Notes under the pieces: generated by a model
What the model was told of the DNA's origin: nothing
What the model saw: the letters and a program-made list of their open reading frames with translations, nothing else
Database searches by the model: none
IMG/VR virus record: IMGVR_UViG_3300046543_000241
Location: 1 to 24,810 of that record
Reading direction: 5' to 3' (one strand)
Source: a virus
Length of the DNA stretch: 24,810 nucleotides
Translations under genes and position numbers: made by a program
Shown: one piece after another, positions 3,000 to 23,390 of the stretch
Numbering within the stretch: the first letter of the stretch is position 1
How the letters are laid out: the number at the start of each line of letters is the position of its first letter

Positions 3000-3659
3000 A
3001 TGGCCTCTCCCGCCAACTATATGATTGGTAAGGGCATCGTATCCGTACGAGCCTATTCCGCCGCCCCTAGCCTCTGGACCGCAACCACGCCGGTTCTGGT
3101 CGGGCAGTCCCTCATGACTGTCGCTGGCGCTATTTACAACGTCACCACGGGCGGGACGACCAGCGCCACGGCGCCAACCGGCACCACGTCCAGCGTGACG
3201 GACGGAACCGCGACGCTCGCCTATATCAATTGGGTGGACATCGGCAACTGCCCGAAATTCGAGTTCAAGCCCGACCTGAAGACGCTCGACCATTATACCT
3301 CGCGCTCGTTCTCGATGACGCAGGACGCCAAGGTTATCACCCAGGTTGGCGGCAAGGTCACTGTCGTCTGCGACGAAATCACCACCTACAATCTGGCGAT
3401 TGGCGTTCTCGGCACCACCACCGGAACGGTCGGAACCCAGGTGACGCAAGTCCTCGCCCGCGCCGGCTTTCAGTGTCAGATCAAACTCACGCAGACCAAC
3501 AGCGTTGGCCTTCGTCACGAGTGGATCTTCACCAACGTCCTGTGCATCCCCGACAAAGCGATTTCGATCATCGACACCAAATTTGCCGAGATTGAACTGA
3601 CCGGCGATACGCTGATCGATCCGAATGGCTCATTCGGTACCGTGACGGAAATCGCCTAA
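3000..3659 (+). CDS. Major tail (tube) protein
   Basis: A 219-residue protein expected to polymerise into the tail tube. The start at 3000 is chosen because TGGAG (2987-2991) lies 8 bases upstream; the in-frame ATGs at 2964 and 2967 have no clear binding site. A Gly/Thr/Ser-rich insert at about residues 32-75 ends in SVTDGTATLAYINWVDIG and resembles the DGTxxW modules of the hub protein. The rest (LDHYTSRSFSMTQDAKVITQVGG, then HEWIFTNV, then FAEIELTGD) has the pattern of siphophage tube proteins. It is followed by the chaperone pair and tape measure, as in most siphophages, and its stop overlaps the next start (TAATG). Confidence 0.85.
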   Translation: MASPANYMIGKGIVSVRAYSAAPSLWTATTPVLVGQSLMTVAGAIYNVTTGGTTSATAPTGTTSSVTDGTATLAYINWVDIGNCPKFEFKPDLKTLDHYTSRSFSMTQDAKVITQVGGKVTVVCDEITTYNLAIGVLGTTTGTVGTQVTQVLARAGFQCQIKLTQTNSVGLRHEWIFTNVLCIPDKAISIIDTKFAEIELTGDTLIDPNGSFGTVTEIA

Positions 3660-4069
3660 TGGCCGGCCTTCTCGATATTGTCCCGGCATCGGCTTCGGTC
3701 GATGTCGGCGGCGTCTCTGTCACGGTTTCGGGCGTCACCGCGAAGGGAATTGCTTCCCTTATCGCGCGGTTTCCTGACATTCAAGCGGCCTTGACCGGCG
3801 AAGGGATCACGGCTGAAAAGCTGATTTCCCTCGCGCCGGATGCTGTGGCGGCGATCATCGCGGCGGGCTGCGGCTTTCCCGGCAACGCCAAGCATGAGGC
3901 GGCGGCCGAGCGGCTGACCATTGGCGCGCAGATCGACTTCCTCTCGGCCATCATCACTGCGACGTTGCCGAGAGGCGTCGGCCCTTTGGTGGATCAGGTC
4001 AAGGCACTCTCGGGGAGCCTCGGCCTGTCGAATACCGACCAAGGTTCAAAGAGTTCGGATACGAACTAG
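3659..4069 (+). CDS. Tail assembly chaperone, short form (gpG-like)
   Basis: A 136-residue, helix-rich protein in the invariant slot between tube and tape-measure genes. By analogy with lambda gpG it coats the tape measure before tube assembly. It has a beta N-terminus (VDVGGVSVTVSGVTAKG), then helices (IASLIARFPDIQAAL; LISLAPDAVAAIIAAG), and a polar disordered tail that ends at TAG 4067-4069. The -1 frame is open from 3898 past this stop up to the tape measure, and a textbook slip heptamer lies at 3982-3988, so a fraction of ribosomes should make a longer product. The start overlaps the stop of the tube gene. Confidence 0.82.
   Translation: MAGLLDIVPASASVDVGGVSVTVSGVTAKGIASLIARFPDIQAALTGEGITAEKLISLAPDAVAAIIAAGCGFPGNAKHEAAAERLTIGAQIDFLSAIITATLPRGVGPLVDQVKALSGSLGLSNTDQGSKSSDTN
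3982..3988 (+). promoter_or_regulatory. -1 programmed ribosomal frameshift slippery site
   Basis: CCCTTTG lies in exactly the X XXY YYZ phase of the chaperone frame (codons GGC CCT TTG), so both tRNAs can re-pair one base back as CCC and TTT. A possible stimulatory stem-loop lies downstream at 4002-4020 (AGGC pairs with GCCT, plus an inner CTC/GGG stem containing one G-T pair), 13 bases after the heptamer. Position upstream of the tape measure matches the conserved G/GT frameshift of siphophages. Confidence 0.8.
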
Positions 4070-4281
4070 CCTTCGCCATCGAATGGCTGATCGTCGTCGG
4101 GCATCACTCGCCCGCCTCGGTCTGGAATTATACGCCGCGCGAGATTTCCGGCCACATGGATTTTGCGCGGCGGGTTCTAAAACTCGAAAAAGCCGATCAG
4201 TTGTCGCTCGCGGCTATCGCGGCGCGCGGCGAAGGCTCGGATATCGAGTCAAGGCACAAAGACCTTTTGCGGGGCGTGTAA
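3988..4281 (+). CDS. Tail assembly chaperone, frameshift extension (gpT-like domain)
   Basis: This -1 frame segment has no suitable start of its own and is expected only as the C-terminal 97 residues of a 207-residue fusion that begins at 3659. After a protein-like Gly-rich linker it reads RFKEFGYELAFAIEWLIVVG, then SPASVWNYTPREISGHMDFA and LSLAAIAARGEG. This resembles the tail-chaperone T domains that recruit tube subunits to the tape measure. The stop TAA (4279-4281) touches the tape-measure ATG at 4282. The segment would be lost in a plain ATG-to-stop annotation, because its frame has only an internal Met. The existence of the fusion is inferred; the open frame and slip site are seen directly. 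Confidence 0.78.
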   Translation, partial: GGSGQGTLGEPRPVEYRPRFKEFGYELAFAIEWLIVVGHHSPASVWNYTPREISGHMDFARRVLKLEKADQLSLAAIAARGEGSDIESRHKDLLRGV

Positions 4282-7200
4282 ATGAAGAGCAATCCCTTTA
4301 CACGGAGCGTCACGCTTGACGGGGCTGATAAAGTAAAATCGTCGCTGTCTGATCTCGCAAAGTTCGGAAAAGACGCCTTCGACCAAATCGGCAAGGCGGG
4401 CAAGGACGCCTTCGACAATATCGGTAAATCTGTCGGTGAAGTCGGCAAAGCGAGCGGCGAAGTCTCGAAAAAGCTGTCCGAAATCGGCACGACCGGCCGG
4501 GGGGCTTTCGATCAAATCCGACAGGCGGCGGCTAATGCCGGATCCACGGAGCTAACCTCCGGCCTGTCGTCTGTCTCGACGATGCTTAGTGAGGTTTCCG
4601 ATAAGGCGAATGCCGCTGGATCATCCCTGTCGCGTTCGCTTGCTTCGGTCGGCAATTTCGGACGCGGACTGGTCCCGACCATTGGCACGGTCGGAATTAT
4701 CGTCGGGTCCGTTCTCGCGCTCAAAAGCGCGCTGACGGCTGTCGGCGCAGCCTCGGCTGATACCGCTGCTAAGATCATGGATACCGCCAAGTCGGCGGGC
4801 ATGACAACGGAAGCCTATCAGCGTTTCGTTCTTGCCGGCGAGAAGGCTGGGCTTTCGTCCGAGCAGATCGCGGCGGGCCTCGCTGCGATCAAAAGGGCCA
4901 CGGATGATGCCGCAGCCGGGTCTACGGTTCTCGGGGCCAATTTCCGCAAACTTGGCGACGCCACTTCGGGCGTGACGACGTTCTACGCCGGGGCAGGCGT
5001 CAGTATAACCAAGTTCGGCGGCGCAATTTCTGGCGCTGGGGCAAAAGCCGAGCATTTCAAAACCGTGTTCGGCGGCGTGCAGCGCAACGTCGAATCTACG
5101 GCGGATTATATCAAGACGCTTTCGGCGGCGCTCGACGCCATGCCTGACGGCGCACAAAAGACCAAGGTTTTAGAAGACCTAAGCAAGAAATTTGGCGACG
5201 AGTTTGTCCAAAGCCTAAGCCTGATCGCCAGCGGCGTTGAGGAAACAAGCGATCTATTCGACAAGCTTGGGCTGAAGTTATCCGAAACGGACGAAGCGGC
5301 TGTCACGGCGCAGCAGACATCCTTGGTGCGGATGAAGGCGGGCCTTGATAATCAAGGACAAATTATCTCAAAAGCCGTTGGCGGCATCCGGCTGCAACTC
5401 GGCCTTATTTTTACGCCGCTCGCCACATCGTCTCAAGACTCGATTTCTAATTTTATCGATGCGCACAAGACGGCGATCGAGGACTTCATTGGCGGGTACG
5501 TCACCCCGGCCATTCGCGCGACCAAGGAATTCGTTGCCAGCCTTGGCGAGGAAGGCGGCGCACTGGATCAGGCGCGAACGGCGTTCGCCGCGCTGTGGGA
5601 AGACATCAAAGATAACGCCTTAAATGCGTTCCTATTCATTCAGGACATTGCCGGAAACACTTTCGCTTCAATAGGAGAATTGCTGTCCGGCAAGGATGTC
5701 GTTTCATGGGAAGGCGTCAAGAAATCGGCTTCGTCCGCTGCTGAATGGATTTCTGGAAAATGGAAAGCGGCGGCAGTATCAATTTCCGCCGGGTGGAACG
5801 ATATCAAGCTTGGCGCGGATTTCCAGCTTGATATTGCTCAAATCGCAATCGGCTCTGAAACCACATTTCAGAAGGTTCAAGCCTATGCATCGGCGGCGTT
5901 TGATTACATCACATTCCAGATTGCGCAAGTTGTTCCGCAATGGGCCGGAAAGCTGGTGCTCCTAAACCAATTCATCCGCGATCTTTTGAACGGCGTACCA
6001 GAAGCCGCAGCGAACGCCTTGAGCGGAATTTCCGACGTTGTATCGGCTGGATATGAGTCTATCAAGACCGCGGCTTTAGAGGCGTTCCCTGACCTTGCTG
6101 ATATGTGGAATTCATTCGAGGCTATGGGCCGCGATGCATTCGCGGCTCTTGGTCAGGTCTCTGGTGCAACATGGCTTGAAATCGGCATTGGAGCCGTCGC
6201 AACTGCGGTCCTATTTGGTGGAGGCTTTACAGCTATAGGGCTTGCTGGCGCGGCTATGTGGCGCGGATTGCTTGAAGGCGCGATTGAGATTTCCCCCGGT
6301 CTGAGCGCAGAATGGGCGGCGCTTCGGATTGCGGCCTCTGCTAGCTTCGAATGGGTTTCTCTGGTCGCTCGCACGGCATGGGATTACATCCTTACACTTT
6401 TCAATAGCGACAAGGCTTTGCAGGCATCCGCATGGGATCTGCTCAAGGCGTCGGCGTCTGCTGCGTGGGAATCGATCCTAATCACATTCGGCGCTGGATG
6501 GACGGCTGTTCGTTCCAGCATCCTCTCGGCGGCTCCGTGGCTGCGTGGCCCATGGAAAGCCATAGAAGATGCGGTTAAATCCGCATGGACCGCGATCAAG
6601 AATGAACACAGCGCAGGCTTCCCGGCCATCAAAGGCATATGGGATAACCTTGTCGCCATTTGGAAAGGCGTCGAAACTGCTGCCGGGCTGGTTGCGAAGG
6701 CAATCAACCTCATTTTCGGAACCAGCCTGACGGGCAAGGATGTGATCATCCTCGCCGTGTTCGCGCAGATGCTAGGAATTATGCCGGCCGTGATCGGCGG
6801 GCTAACGCTCGTCGCGGTCACTATCGGAATCGTTTCTGCTGCGTTCGGCGCCGCGACATCTATTGTTAAATTTGGGCTGCTGCTGGCGTCGCTCGGCCCG
6901 GAAGGCCTGCTTATCATCGCCGTTATTGGCGCAATCGGCGTCGCGCTTTACGAATTGTATATCCATTGGGACGACATCAAGGCCGCAGCAAGCGCCGCAT
7001 GGGAGGCCATGAAGAATGGAGCCTCCTCGGCGTGGCAATGGATCAAAACCACGGCAGGCGATTTCTTCGCATGGGTCGGCGGCAAATTTGACGCTCTCAA
7101 ATCGCTGGCTGGCGGCGCATGGGATGGCATGAAATCCGCCGCGCAGTCGGCAATGGATTTTATGAGTTCGGGCCTTGGGAAGATTGAGAGCGCGGCGGCG

Positions 7201-7503
7201 CGGGCGTGGGCGGCGCTGAAAGGTTCTGTTTCGGCGGTTGGCTCCGTGGTCTCTGGCGCGGCATCCGGGGCGGCTAGCGCCGTCATGGGTGGCATCCAGC
7301 CGGCCGCTATGGTCCCGGCATTCTCTGGATCAGGCGCGGGAGGAGCATCGCGCTCGGCAGGGTTGATCGCCTTCCCGTTGGGCATTGGCGGAAGCCAGTT
7401 CGATGTTTACGGCTCCGACGAAGTGGTGGCCGATCTTCGCCGCCTCGCCGCCGACATTCAATCGTCGAAGACGCTCAAGAATAATCCAAGCTGGGATAAA
7501 TAA
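4282..7503 (+). CDS. Tape measure protein
   Basis: At 1073 residues this is the largest protein of the window. It sets tail length and occupies the tube lumen, and may help DNA cross the host membrane. The N-terminus (about residues 25-80) repeats a K-DAFD-IGK unit (FGKDAFDQIGKAGKDAFDNIGK). Long helices and several hydrophobic stretches follow at about 130-155, 625-655 and 815-890 (for example VIILAVFAQMLGIMPAVIGG). The second half repeats Ala/Trp-rich AW..I/M..A units (SAAWEAMKNGASSAWQWIK), typical of tape measures. Using the usual 1.5 Angstrom per residue, the tail would be about 160 nm long; that figure is an estimate. It follows the frameshifted chaperone gene directly. Confidence 0.93.
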   Translation: MKSNPFTRSVTLDGADKVKSSLSDLAKFGKDAFDQIGKAGKDAFDNIGKSVGEVGKASGEVSKKLSEIGTTGRGAFDQIRQAAANAGSTELTSGLSSVSTMLSEVSDKANAAGSSLSRSLASVGNFGRGLVPTIGTVGIIVGSVLALKSALTAVGAASADTAAKIMDTAKSAGMTTEAYQRFVLAGEKAGLSSEQIAAGLAAIKRATDDAAAGSTVLGANFRKLGDATSGVTTFYAGAGVSITKFGGAISGAGAKAEHFKTVFGGVQRNVESTADYIKTLSAALDAMPDGAQKTKVLEDLSKKFGDEFVQSLSLIASGVEETSDLFDKLGLKLSETDEAAVTAQQTSLVRMKAGLDNQGQIISKAVGGIRLQLGLIFTPLATSSQDSISNFIDAHKTAIEDFIGGYVTPAIRATKEFVASLGEEGGALDQARTAFAALWEDIKDNALNAFLFIQDIAGNTFASIGELLSGKDVVSWEGVKKSASSAAEWISGKWKAAAVSISAGWNDIKLGADFQLDIAQIAIGSETTFQKVQAYASAAFDYITFQIAQVVPQWAGKLVLLNQFIRDLLNGVPEAAANALSGISDVVSAGYESIKTAALEAFPDLADMWNSFEAMGRDAFAALGQVSGATWLEIGIGAVATAVLFGGGFTAIGLAGAAMWRGLLEGAIEISPGLSAEWAALRIAASASFEWVSLVARTAWDYILTLFNSDKALQASAWDLLKASASAAWESILITFGAGWTAVRSSILSAAPWLRGPWKAIEDAVKSAWTAIKNEHSAGFPAIKGIWDNLVAIWKGVETAAGLVAKAINLIFGTSLTGKDVIILAVFAQMLGIMPAVIGGLTLVAVTIGIVSAAFGAATSIVKFGLLLASLGPEGLLIIAVIGAIGVALYELYIHWDDIKAAASAAWEAMKNGASSAWQWIKTTAGDFFAWVGGKFDALKSLAGGAWDGMKSAAQSAMDFMSSGLGKIESAAARAWAALKGSVSAVGSVVSGAASGAASAVMGGIQPAAMVPAFSGSGAGGASRSAGLIAFPLGIGGSQFDVYGSDEVVADLRRLAADIQSSKTLKNNPSWDK

Positions 7504-15679: not shown

Positions 15680-16387
15680 ATGTCTGGCGCGTTAGGCGCG
15701 GACGCCATTGGCCTCAGCGCGATTGCTGCCGAAAGCACCTCAGCATCTCCGTCCGCATCGGGGGCGCTGGCGACGACGGAAAGCGCAGACGGCGCCGCTT
15801 TTGCCGGGAGTATTTCCACAAGCGCCGCGCTGGCGACGACGGAAGCTTCCGACACGGCGGCGGCGGCGGGTTCCGTCGCGTCCTCTGGCGCGATTTCGGC
15901 AACGGAGGCGTCGGACGCGGCGGCGCTTGCGGGTTCGTCCGCCTCAAGCGGGGCGCTGGCGTCCAATGAGGCACAAGACGCGGCGGCCATAGCCGGAACC
16001 ACTGGAGGCACGACGGCGGGCACGCTGGCGGCGACGGAGGCGGCGGACGCGGCCGGCCTATCCGGTTCAATCAGTTCGACCGGTTCAGTGGGCGCGACCG
16101 AAGGGCAAGATGGCGCCGCGCTTTCCGGCAATGTGGCGATACCTGGCGCGCTGTCGGCAACGGATCAACCTGACACGGCCTCGCTTACGGGTGGCGTGTC
16201 TTTATCCGGCGCCCTTGCCGCATCTGAATCGCCCGACATCGCCGCCATATCCGTGGCGGTCAGCCAACCCCAATCGCGGCTTGTTATCGTCCCCGGCGTA
16301 TGGCCGCCGCAATCCGCCACCGTCAAGGGCGTCTATTCCAAAACCATCACGACGCCCGGCTTGTTCGGGATCAGAAAGGCAAGTTGA
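15680..16387 (+). CDS. Ala-rich repeat protein of the tail region (8 x about 21 aa)
   Basis: A 235-residue protein in which residues 27-196 are eight tandem units of about 21 residues (one of 23), with consensus near SGALAATEA-D-AALAGS. Each unit holds a conserved Ala-Thr-Glu, an Asp and a small-residue stretch. The C-terminal 39 residues are different and positively charged (LVIVPGVWPPQSATVKGVYS), and may dock to the virion. Similar repeats occur, as far as I recall, in other alphaproteobacterial phage proteins, but no function is known to me. The start is two bases after the previous stop, and the stop overlaps the next ATG. A flexible stalk or spacer in the fibre complex is a guess. Confidence 0.7.
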   Translation: MSGALGADAIGLSAIAAESTSASPSASGALATTESADGAAFAGSISTSAALATTEASDTAAAAGSVASSGAISATEASDAAALAGSSASSGALASNEAQDAAAIAGTTGGTTAGTLAATEAADAAGLSGSISSTGSVGATEGQDGAALSGNVAIPGALSATDQPDTASLTGGVSLSGALAASESPDIAAISVAVSQPQSRLVIVPGVWPPQSATVKGVYSKTITTPGLFGIRKAS

Positions 16388-22233: not shown

Positions 22234-23232
22234 TCACTTAAAAATCTTCATTTCCAAACTTGCACTCGCCGTGCGCAAATGATCCGGCGCCCACTTCGCA
22301 TAGACACGCTCCGTGATCGCTGAATCCGCATGGCCCAACAGCGCAGCAATCTGGCTCATTGGAACACCATCCTCAGCCATCCAGACCGCAGCCGTATGGC
22401 GAAAGACATGCGGGGTGCAGCCATTGACGCCGGCCCGGCGTGCGGCCTCCGCGACGCCCTTCTTGGCCGACTTGATCGGGGCGCCGCCATGCTCGATCAC
22501 ATATTCAGTTCGCGCGCCTTCCCTGGCTGATGATAGCGCGGCCCGGGCCGTGTTGGTCATCGGGACCGTCGCCCGGCCCTTCTGGCGCATCGTCCGGTCA
22601 GGATCTCCAAGCACGATCAACCCGCGCTCAAAGTCGATCCGGTCCCATTTTAGCTCTAGCAGAGCTGTCGCCCGCGCGGCGGTCGAAATCGCCAGCACGA
22701 TAAACAAGCGCACATGCGGCGCGACAGCGGCGTTAATGACGCGCTCAGCCTCCGAGCGCGCGAGGTGGCGCTCGCACGGAGGCGGAAGTTGCGGGCGCTC
22801 GATGTGCGGCGCCTCTCGGATCATGCGGGACTTGACAGCCCACGCCAGACACACGCGAAGGTGCGCAAGTTCGGTGCAGATCGTGCCAGCCTGGCGCCCG
22901 GACGCCTTGCGGGCCTTGGCATAAGCGCGGCAATCCTTCGACGTGATCGACATAGGCTTCATCGCGCCGAACACCGGCAAGATCGCGCGCCCGCTCCATT
23001 CCATATTCTCAGCAATGCGCCGGCCCGCCCGATCCGCACGATACGCCGCCCAAATCTCGGCAATGGCCGGGTCTATGGGCTTGCCGGCGTCCGCGACGAT
23101 TTCGGCAAATTCGATTGCCGCCGCCGCTGCATCGCCAGCGTCAAGCTGGCGGCGGCTGATACGGGTTCCGCCTTCATAGGCGGCGATGCACCATCCGCCG
23201 CGCAGTCGCTGGAGTTTGTATTCGATGGGCAT
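22234..23232 (-). CDS. int: Tyrosine-type integrase
   Basis: A 332-residue phage integrase that should recombine attP with a host tRNA-Thr gene. The N-terminal part (1-60) is a basic arm-type domain (KLQRLRGGWCIAAYEGGTR), and about 65-150 is the core-binding helical domain. The catalytic domain shows R187 (in STAARATALLELKW), K218 (RQKGR), H275-x-x-R278 (HVFRHTAA), H301 (LLGHAD) and the nucleophile Y311 (ERVYAKWAP), so all active-site residues are present. Translation is helped by GGAGG just upstream of the ATG. Its first about 160 bases overlap the end of the HTH gene. Orientation places it on the side of attP away from the late genes. Confidence 0.95.
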   Translation of the reverse strand: MPIEYKLQRLRGGWCIAAYEGGTRISRRQLDAGDAAAAAIEFAEIVADAGKPIDPAIAEIWAAYRADRAGRRIAENMEWSGRAILPVFGAMKPMSITSKDCRAYAKARKASGRQAGTICTELAHLRVCLAWAVKSRMIREAPHIERPQLPPPCERHLARSEAERVINAAVAPHVRLFIVLAISTAARATALLELKWDRIDFERGLIVLGDPDRTMRQKGRATVPMTNTARAALSSAREGARTEYVIEHGGAPIKSAKKGVAEAARRAGVNGCTPHVFRHTAAVWMAEDGVPMSQIAALLGHADSAITERVYAKWAPDHLRTASASLEMKIFK

Positions 23233-23390
23233 AGCATGGCCTCCAGATCGGACGCACGGATTCTAAGCAGTTTCCCGCCCAATCGGAAAGCAGGGATTTC
23301 ACCGCGTCCGATCATAGCGCGGACATGGGCGGGCGAGCACTTGAGGGCAAGCGCCGCTTCGTCGGGCGTGTAAACCAGAGGGCGGCTCAT
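23073..23390 (-). CDS. Excisionase-family helix-turn-helix protein
   Basis: A 105-residue frame with a MerR/HTH_17-type DNA-binding domain in residues 1-57: LVYTPDEAALALKCSPAHVR, then MIGRGEIPAFRLGGKLLRIR and ASDLEAML. Such domains occur in phage excisionases next to integrases, and this position fits. The C-terminal half (after about residue 57) overlaps the integrase start in another frame, and its Ala/Arg-rich composition may simply follow from that overlap. GGAG lies 5 bases before the ATG. A role as excisionase or as directional regulator is inferred. Confidence 0.78.
   Translation of the reverse strand: MSRPLVYTPDEAALALKCSPAHVRAMIGRGEIPAFRLGGKLLRIRASDLEAMLCPSNTNSSDCAADGASPPMKAEPVSAAASLTLAMQRRRQSNLPKSSRTPASP

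Follow-up and report, generated by a model that had tools for sequence, protein, structure and literature searches.

What does this virus encode in the interval separating its major tail protein gene from its tape measure gene, and does the open reading frame found there yield one product or two? The window (the whole stretch of DNA analysed, 24,810 nucleotides, positions 1 to 24,810 of IMG/VR record IMGVR_UViG_3300046543_000241) had been read, in a preliminary description made from the letters alone, as carrying a tail chaperone fusion of the G/GT type produced by a programmed -1 frameshift. The G/GT chaperone arrangement of the lambda type is well known. We found this reading to be supported by a conserved slip site, a conserved T frame, membership of G in the Pre_tape_measure family and the position of the gene, and we consider it very probable that the locus encodes tail assembly chaperones of the lambda G/GT type, with GT made through programmed -1 ribosomal frameshifting.

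Anatomy of the locus

The features used below, in window coordinates, are:

3000..3659, plus strand: major tail protein gene (ATG at 3000; the ORF is listed from GTG 2964); phrog_807, Ig-like domain, E 1e-13.
3659..4069, plus strand: G, the zero-frame ORF of the predicted tail assembly chaperone, 136 aa; ORF list, PF23789, phrog_5260 and predicted fold.
3982..3988, plus strand: slippery heptamer C CCT TTG, phased as X XXY YYZ; sequence, and conservation in homologues.
3982..4281, plus strand: T, the -1-frame extension; startless open frame, homologous peptide, dN/dS and phrog_13355.
3995..4027, plus strand: stem-loop, 3995-4009 pairing with 4013-4027; folding, and pairing in six relatives.
4282..7503, plus strand: tape measure protein gene, 1073 aa; phrog_1535 and other tail length tape measure families, E down to 5e-16.
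22234-23390, minus strand: tyrosine integrase (Pfam PF00589), preceded by an excisionase-like protein.

G is flanked by the major tail protein gene upstream and the tape measure gene downstream; its ATG (3659) sits within the stop of the former, and it runs to a TAG at 4067-4069. Against Pfam PF23789 (Pre_tape_measure) it scored 61.3 bits, for a cut-off of 27, and the same family was matched by 56 of 57 aligned G members at E 0.01; G also matched the tail protein family phrog_5260 (E 4e-11). The best solved matches of the predicted G fold (pLDDT 74) were the HK97 chaperone 2ob9 (Z 6.4 over 88 residues) and YqbN 3klu (Z 5.8 over 89 residues), which, with Z under 8, is only suggestive of a chaperone-like fold. 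Foldseek returned no significant match for the G model, and a PDB sequence search with the G and T profiles gave nothing convincing. The window also encodes a major capsid protein (50-1153), a head-tail adaptor, a tail terminator and an endolysin. It is part of a tailed phage, which is probably temperate in view of the tyrosine integrase and the excisionase-like protein. A separate ORF at 15680-16387 contains imperfect Ala/Ser-rich repeats (SGALAATEASDAAALAG-like) and has no family match.

A slippery X XXY YYZ heptamer was found inside the overlap of G with an open -1 frame. The zero-frame codons there are GGC CCT TTG (C3982, CCT 3983-85, TTG 3986-88), so that CCCTTTG matches the X XXY YYZ phase exactly. 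From 3898 on the -1 frame runs open, the T peptide occupies 3982-4278 and the stop, TAA, falls at 4279-4281; as the tape measure ATG is at 4282, T and the tape measure gene abut. The predicted G-T fusion comprises 110 zero-frame and 97 -1-frame residues (207 aa), with the junction PL-GGSG. Ahead of the zero-frame stop, the -1 frame holds no ATG, GTG or TTG, both in the window and in the whole window clade. Of these points, the preliminary description had claimed the phase of CCCTTTG, a -1 frame open over 3898-4281 past the zero-frame stop and ending at the tape measure gene, the PL-GGSG junction, products of 136 and 207 residues and a T half that lacks a usable start, and each was reproduced here, the two lengths being those of predicted products. 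In-frame heptamers of this 3-3 kind occur 13 times per 5968 codon steps in the main ORFs of the window (about 1 per 460), so that 0.12 would be expected within the -1-open portion of G. When the window G gene was resampled with synonymous codons, a CCC(TTT/AAA) site appeared in 2.8% of resamplings.

The slip site, the T frame and the downstream stem are conserved

The homologue set consisted of 73 distinct loci with an intact G, drawn from IMG/VR scans. An in-frame CCCTTTN or CCCAAAN together with an open -1 T frame was present in 72/73 (CCCAAAC in 43, CCCTTTC in 13, CCCTTTG in 8, CCCAAAT in 4, CCCAAAA in 2, CCCTTTT in 1, and one two-site locus). Synonymous codon resampling (500 trials) predicted 11.4 +/- 3.1 homologues with a site, with a maximum of 21, although the homologous loci are mutually related and therefore not independent. 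The zero-frame stop shifts freely among these loci, from 369 to 495 nt after the G start, without any break in the T frame. The Pro codon of the slip site is invariant: all 22/22 TTT-type loci have CCT, which ranks first among 94 columns in synonymous constraint, and all 50/50 AAA-type loci have CCA, which ranks third among 131. A distant member found later, and thus out-of-sample (L124), carries an in-phase CCCTTTC, with T again in the -1 frame. Relatives whose -1 frame is broken by stops had been named beforehand as evidence against the frameshift; the frame was open in 72/72 heptamer-bearing loci. Judged from these alignments, conservation throughout a deep family extends to the slip site, to the -1 reading frame and to the peptide encoded in it. 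Searching 50,697 phage records by tblastn with G and with T gave no match, the tape measure protein found weak matches at best in phage records, and two scans of genome contigs found no relative.

We also considered a +1 shift and rejected it: the conserved T peptide sits in the -1 frame, and the +1 frame near the G stop is mostly closed or not kept. One further locus (L013:2501-2886, the same contig as L005) has a deletion in G that disrupts the zero frame, although the heptamer and the T frame after it are intact; this may be either real decay or an assembly error.

Both deep groups of the family share a conserved T peptide, encoded in the -1 frame. For the coding constraint on T, dN/dS was taken past the zero-frame stop, leaving out the doubly read overlap, which is hard to interpret. 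It was 0.136 for T vs 0.158 for G in the window clade, and about 0.30 for T in the other groups, close to the values for G itself, which ranged from 0.16 to 0.26. These ratios indicate purifying selection on the part of T that follows the zero-frame stop, with dN/dS near 0.14 in the window clade. The 58-aa family phrog_13355 matches the second half of T only. The predicted T model consists of helices, with a linker of low confidence following the slip, and gave no informative solved relative and no significant Foldseek match. In seven loci (L035, L036, L037, L038, L039, L068 and L070), T stops soon after a TPRQI motif and its second half is thus missing.

The stem of the window begins 6 nt after the heptamer. 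A stem-loop had been noticed before, but placed 13 nt downstream; its presence holds, whereas its extent does not, as that stem is the apical half of the one at 3995-4009/4013-4027. Its energy (-18.9 kcal/mol, z -1.25) is ordinary for the composition, with 19/200 shuffles equally good. Across six close relatives it pairs in 89% of cells vs at most 56% when slid, with a single compensatory pair (C-G to A-U in L012). AAA-type relatives carry a 10-bp stem 7 nt after the heptamer, in which 87% of cells are paired vs at most 55% when slid, and this stem covaries: its 10 double-change cells exceeded every one of 500 shuffles. From this pairing pattern, the stem at 3995-4027 is a likely stimulator of slippage.

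Slip positions, exceptional loci and other possible routes to T

In the protein alignment, TTT-type sites fall at GP(F/L), whereas those of the AAA type precede this position by five codons and coincide with FPN or LPK; the stem sits 6-7 nt behind the heptamer in both types. The tree shows two deep groups, one nearly all AAA and the other nearly all TTT, with L048, L058 and L062 as AAA members inside the TTT group; a minimum of 4 changes of slip type is needed on the tree, of which well-supported branches require only 1-2. In L048 and L058 the slip site is the upstream one, and the downstream position reads CCC CTT instead of CCT TT. One locus (L069:2818-2839) has both sites in phase, CCCAAAC and then CCCTTTC five codons on, and is a possible intermediate between the two arrangements. 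Another (L063:2501-3111) is the sole intact homologue without a 3-3 heptamer, yet it retains T in the -1 frame; since AAGGA lies upstream of its G stop and possible CTG/TTG starts lie nearby, T may come there from a stop-restart or an unusual slip. No heptamer-less kin of L063 were found, as the other relatives already in the set carry a heptamer and so does L124. It is possible, though less likely than not, that the frameshift signal moved by five codons within one chaperone family, possibly via double-site states such as that of L069, and that the heptamer was lost in at least one lineage (L063). If true, the moved and lost slip sites form a natural record of the turnover of a programmed frameshift site. 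This comparative picture, with two slip positions five codons apart, one relative with both and one with neither, is the mildly new part of the work.

The same loci bear on whether T could be a protein in its own right, for which ribosomes would start by translational coupling or re-initiate close to where G ends, without any frameshift. L063 itself would fit such a route, as would the restriction of phrog_13355 to the second half of T. In most AAA-type relatives, moreover, a T-frame ATG overlaps the zero-frame stop as ATGA (e.g. L033:2475-2480 and L066:2960-2965), which might also permit a free short T by re-initiation in those loci. But the T frame of the window clade has neither the ATGA nor any of the three starts before the zero-frame stop; the first residues of the conserved T peptide are encoded before the ATGA and, in the window clade, even before the zero-frame stop; and the invariant heptamer and Pro codon would be left unexplained. 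We therefore regard a separate T as very unlikely. A G-T fusion would likewise arise if RNA polymerase stuttered at the site (transcriptional slippage). Stuttering requires longer homopolymer runs, whereas the window site has three C and three T only, and the relatives retain an in-phase 3-3 motif with a downstream RNA stem, which leaves this route with next to no probability. A heptamer that matches by chance, next to a -1 frame that is merely a remnant or an artefact of sequencing, could be entertained for a single GC-rich metagenomic contig, given how often 3-3 heptamers fall in frame, but with heptamer, frame, peptide and stem conserved in 72/73 homologues from many samples, the comparative data in practice refute it and we give it almost no weight.

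Proposed mechanism and comparison with known systems

Under programmed -1 frameshifting, most ribosomes would translate G and stop at 4069. A minority would slip at C CCT TTG, probably aided by the stem-loop, the P-site tRNA-Pro exchanging its pairing with CCT for one with CCC, and the A-site tRNA-Leu its pairing with TTG for one with TTT; these ribosomes would then read the -1 frame to 4281 and produce the 207-aa fusion. The sequences themselves demonstrate the layout of the locus, its conservation, the constraint on T as coding sequence and the conserved stem. By analogy with lambda, we infer that slippage occurs, how often it does, and what G and GT do: G would be expected to bind the tape measure protein and T to recruit the major tail protein, neither chaperone product remaining in the virion.

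For a large family of environmental tailed phages, this reading corrects the annotation: the T half is currently missed, or filed without its first half as the short phrog_13355 protein of no known function. The comparative set, with its silent changes, two slip positions and double-site relative, also provides a test bed for slip-site requirements in phage tail genes.

Among solved structures, the HK97 chaperone (2ob9) and YqbN (3klu) are the top two matches of the predicted G model, but share only 10-16% identity with G. Phage AH2 has a predicted slip site of AAAAAAG, not CCCTTTN (PMC3483164), and in the literature searched we found no paper in which a phage slip site reads CCCTTTG. The G of BcepNazgul is weakly homologous to the window G (E 1.4e-5), and its G-T is already annotated as a joined CDS, ending at record position 35975. 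A slip at its in-phase CCCAAAA gives 133 + 110 = 243 aa, equal to the recorded length, and also ends at 35975. As in the window, BcepNazgul G adjoins a major tail protein with an Ig-like domain, whereas its T has no detectable similarity to the T profile. With respect to lambda, the window differs in its heptamer, CCCTTTG instead of GGGAAAG. It is alike in having a chaperone gene flanked by those for the major tail protein and the tape measure, a short and a long product (here predicted), a 3-3 heptamer in frame close to the 3' end of G and a -1 extension, T, without a start of its own, the arrangement behind the -1 frameshift of lambda gpG/gpGT (reviewed in PMC5009743, which cites Xu, Hendrix and Duda 2004).
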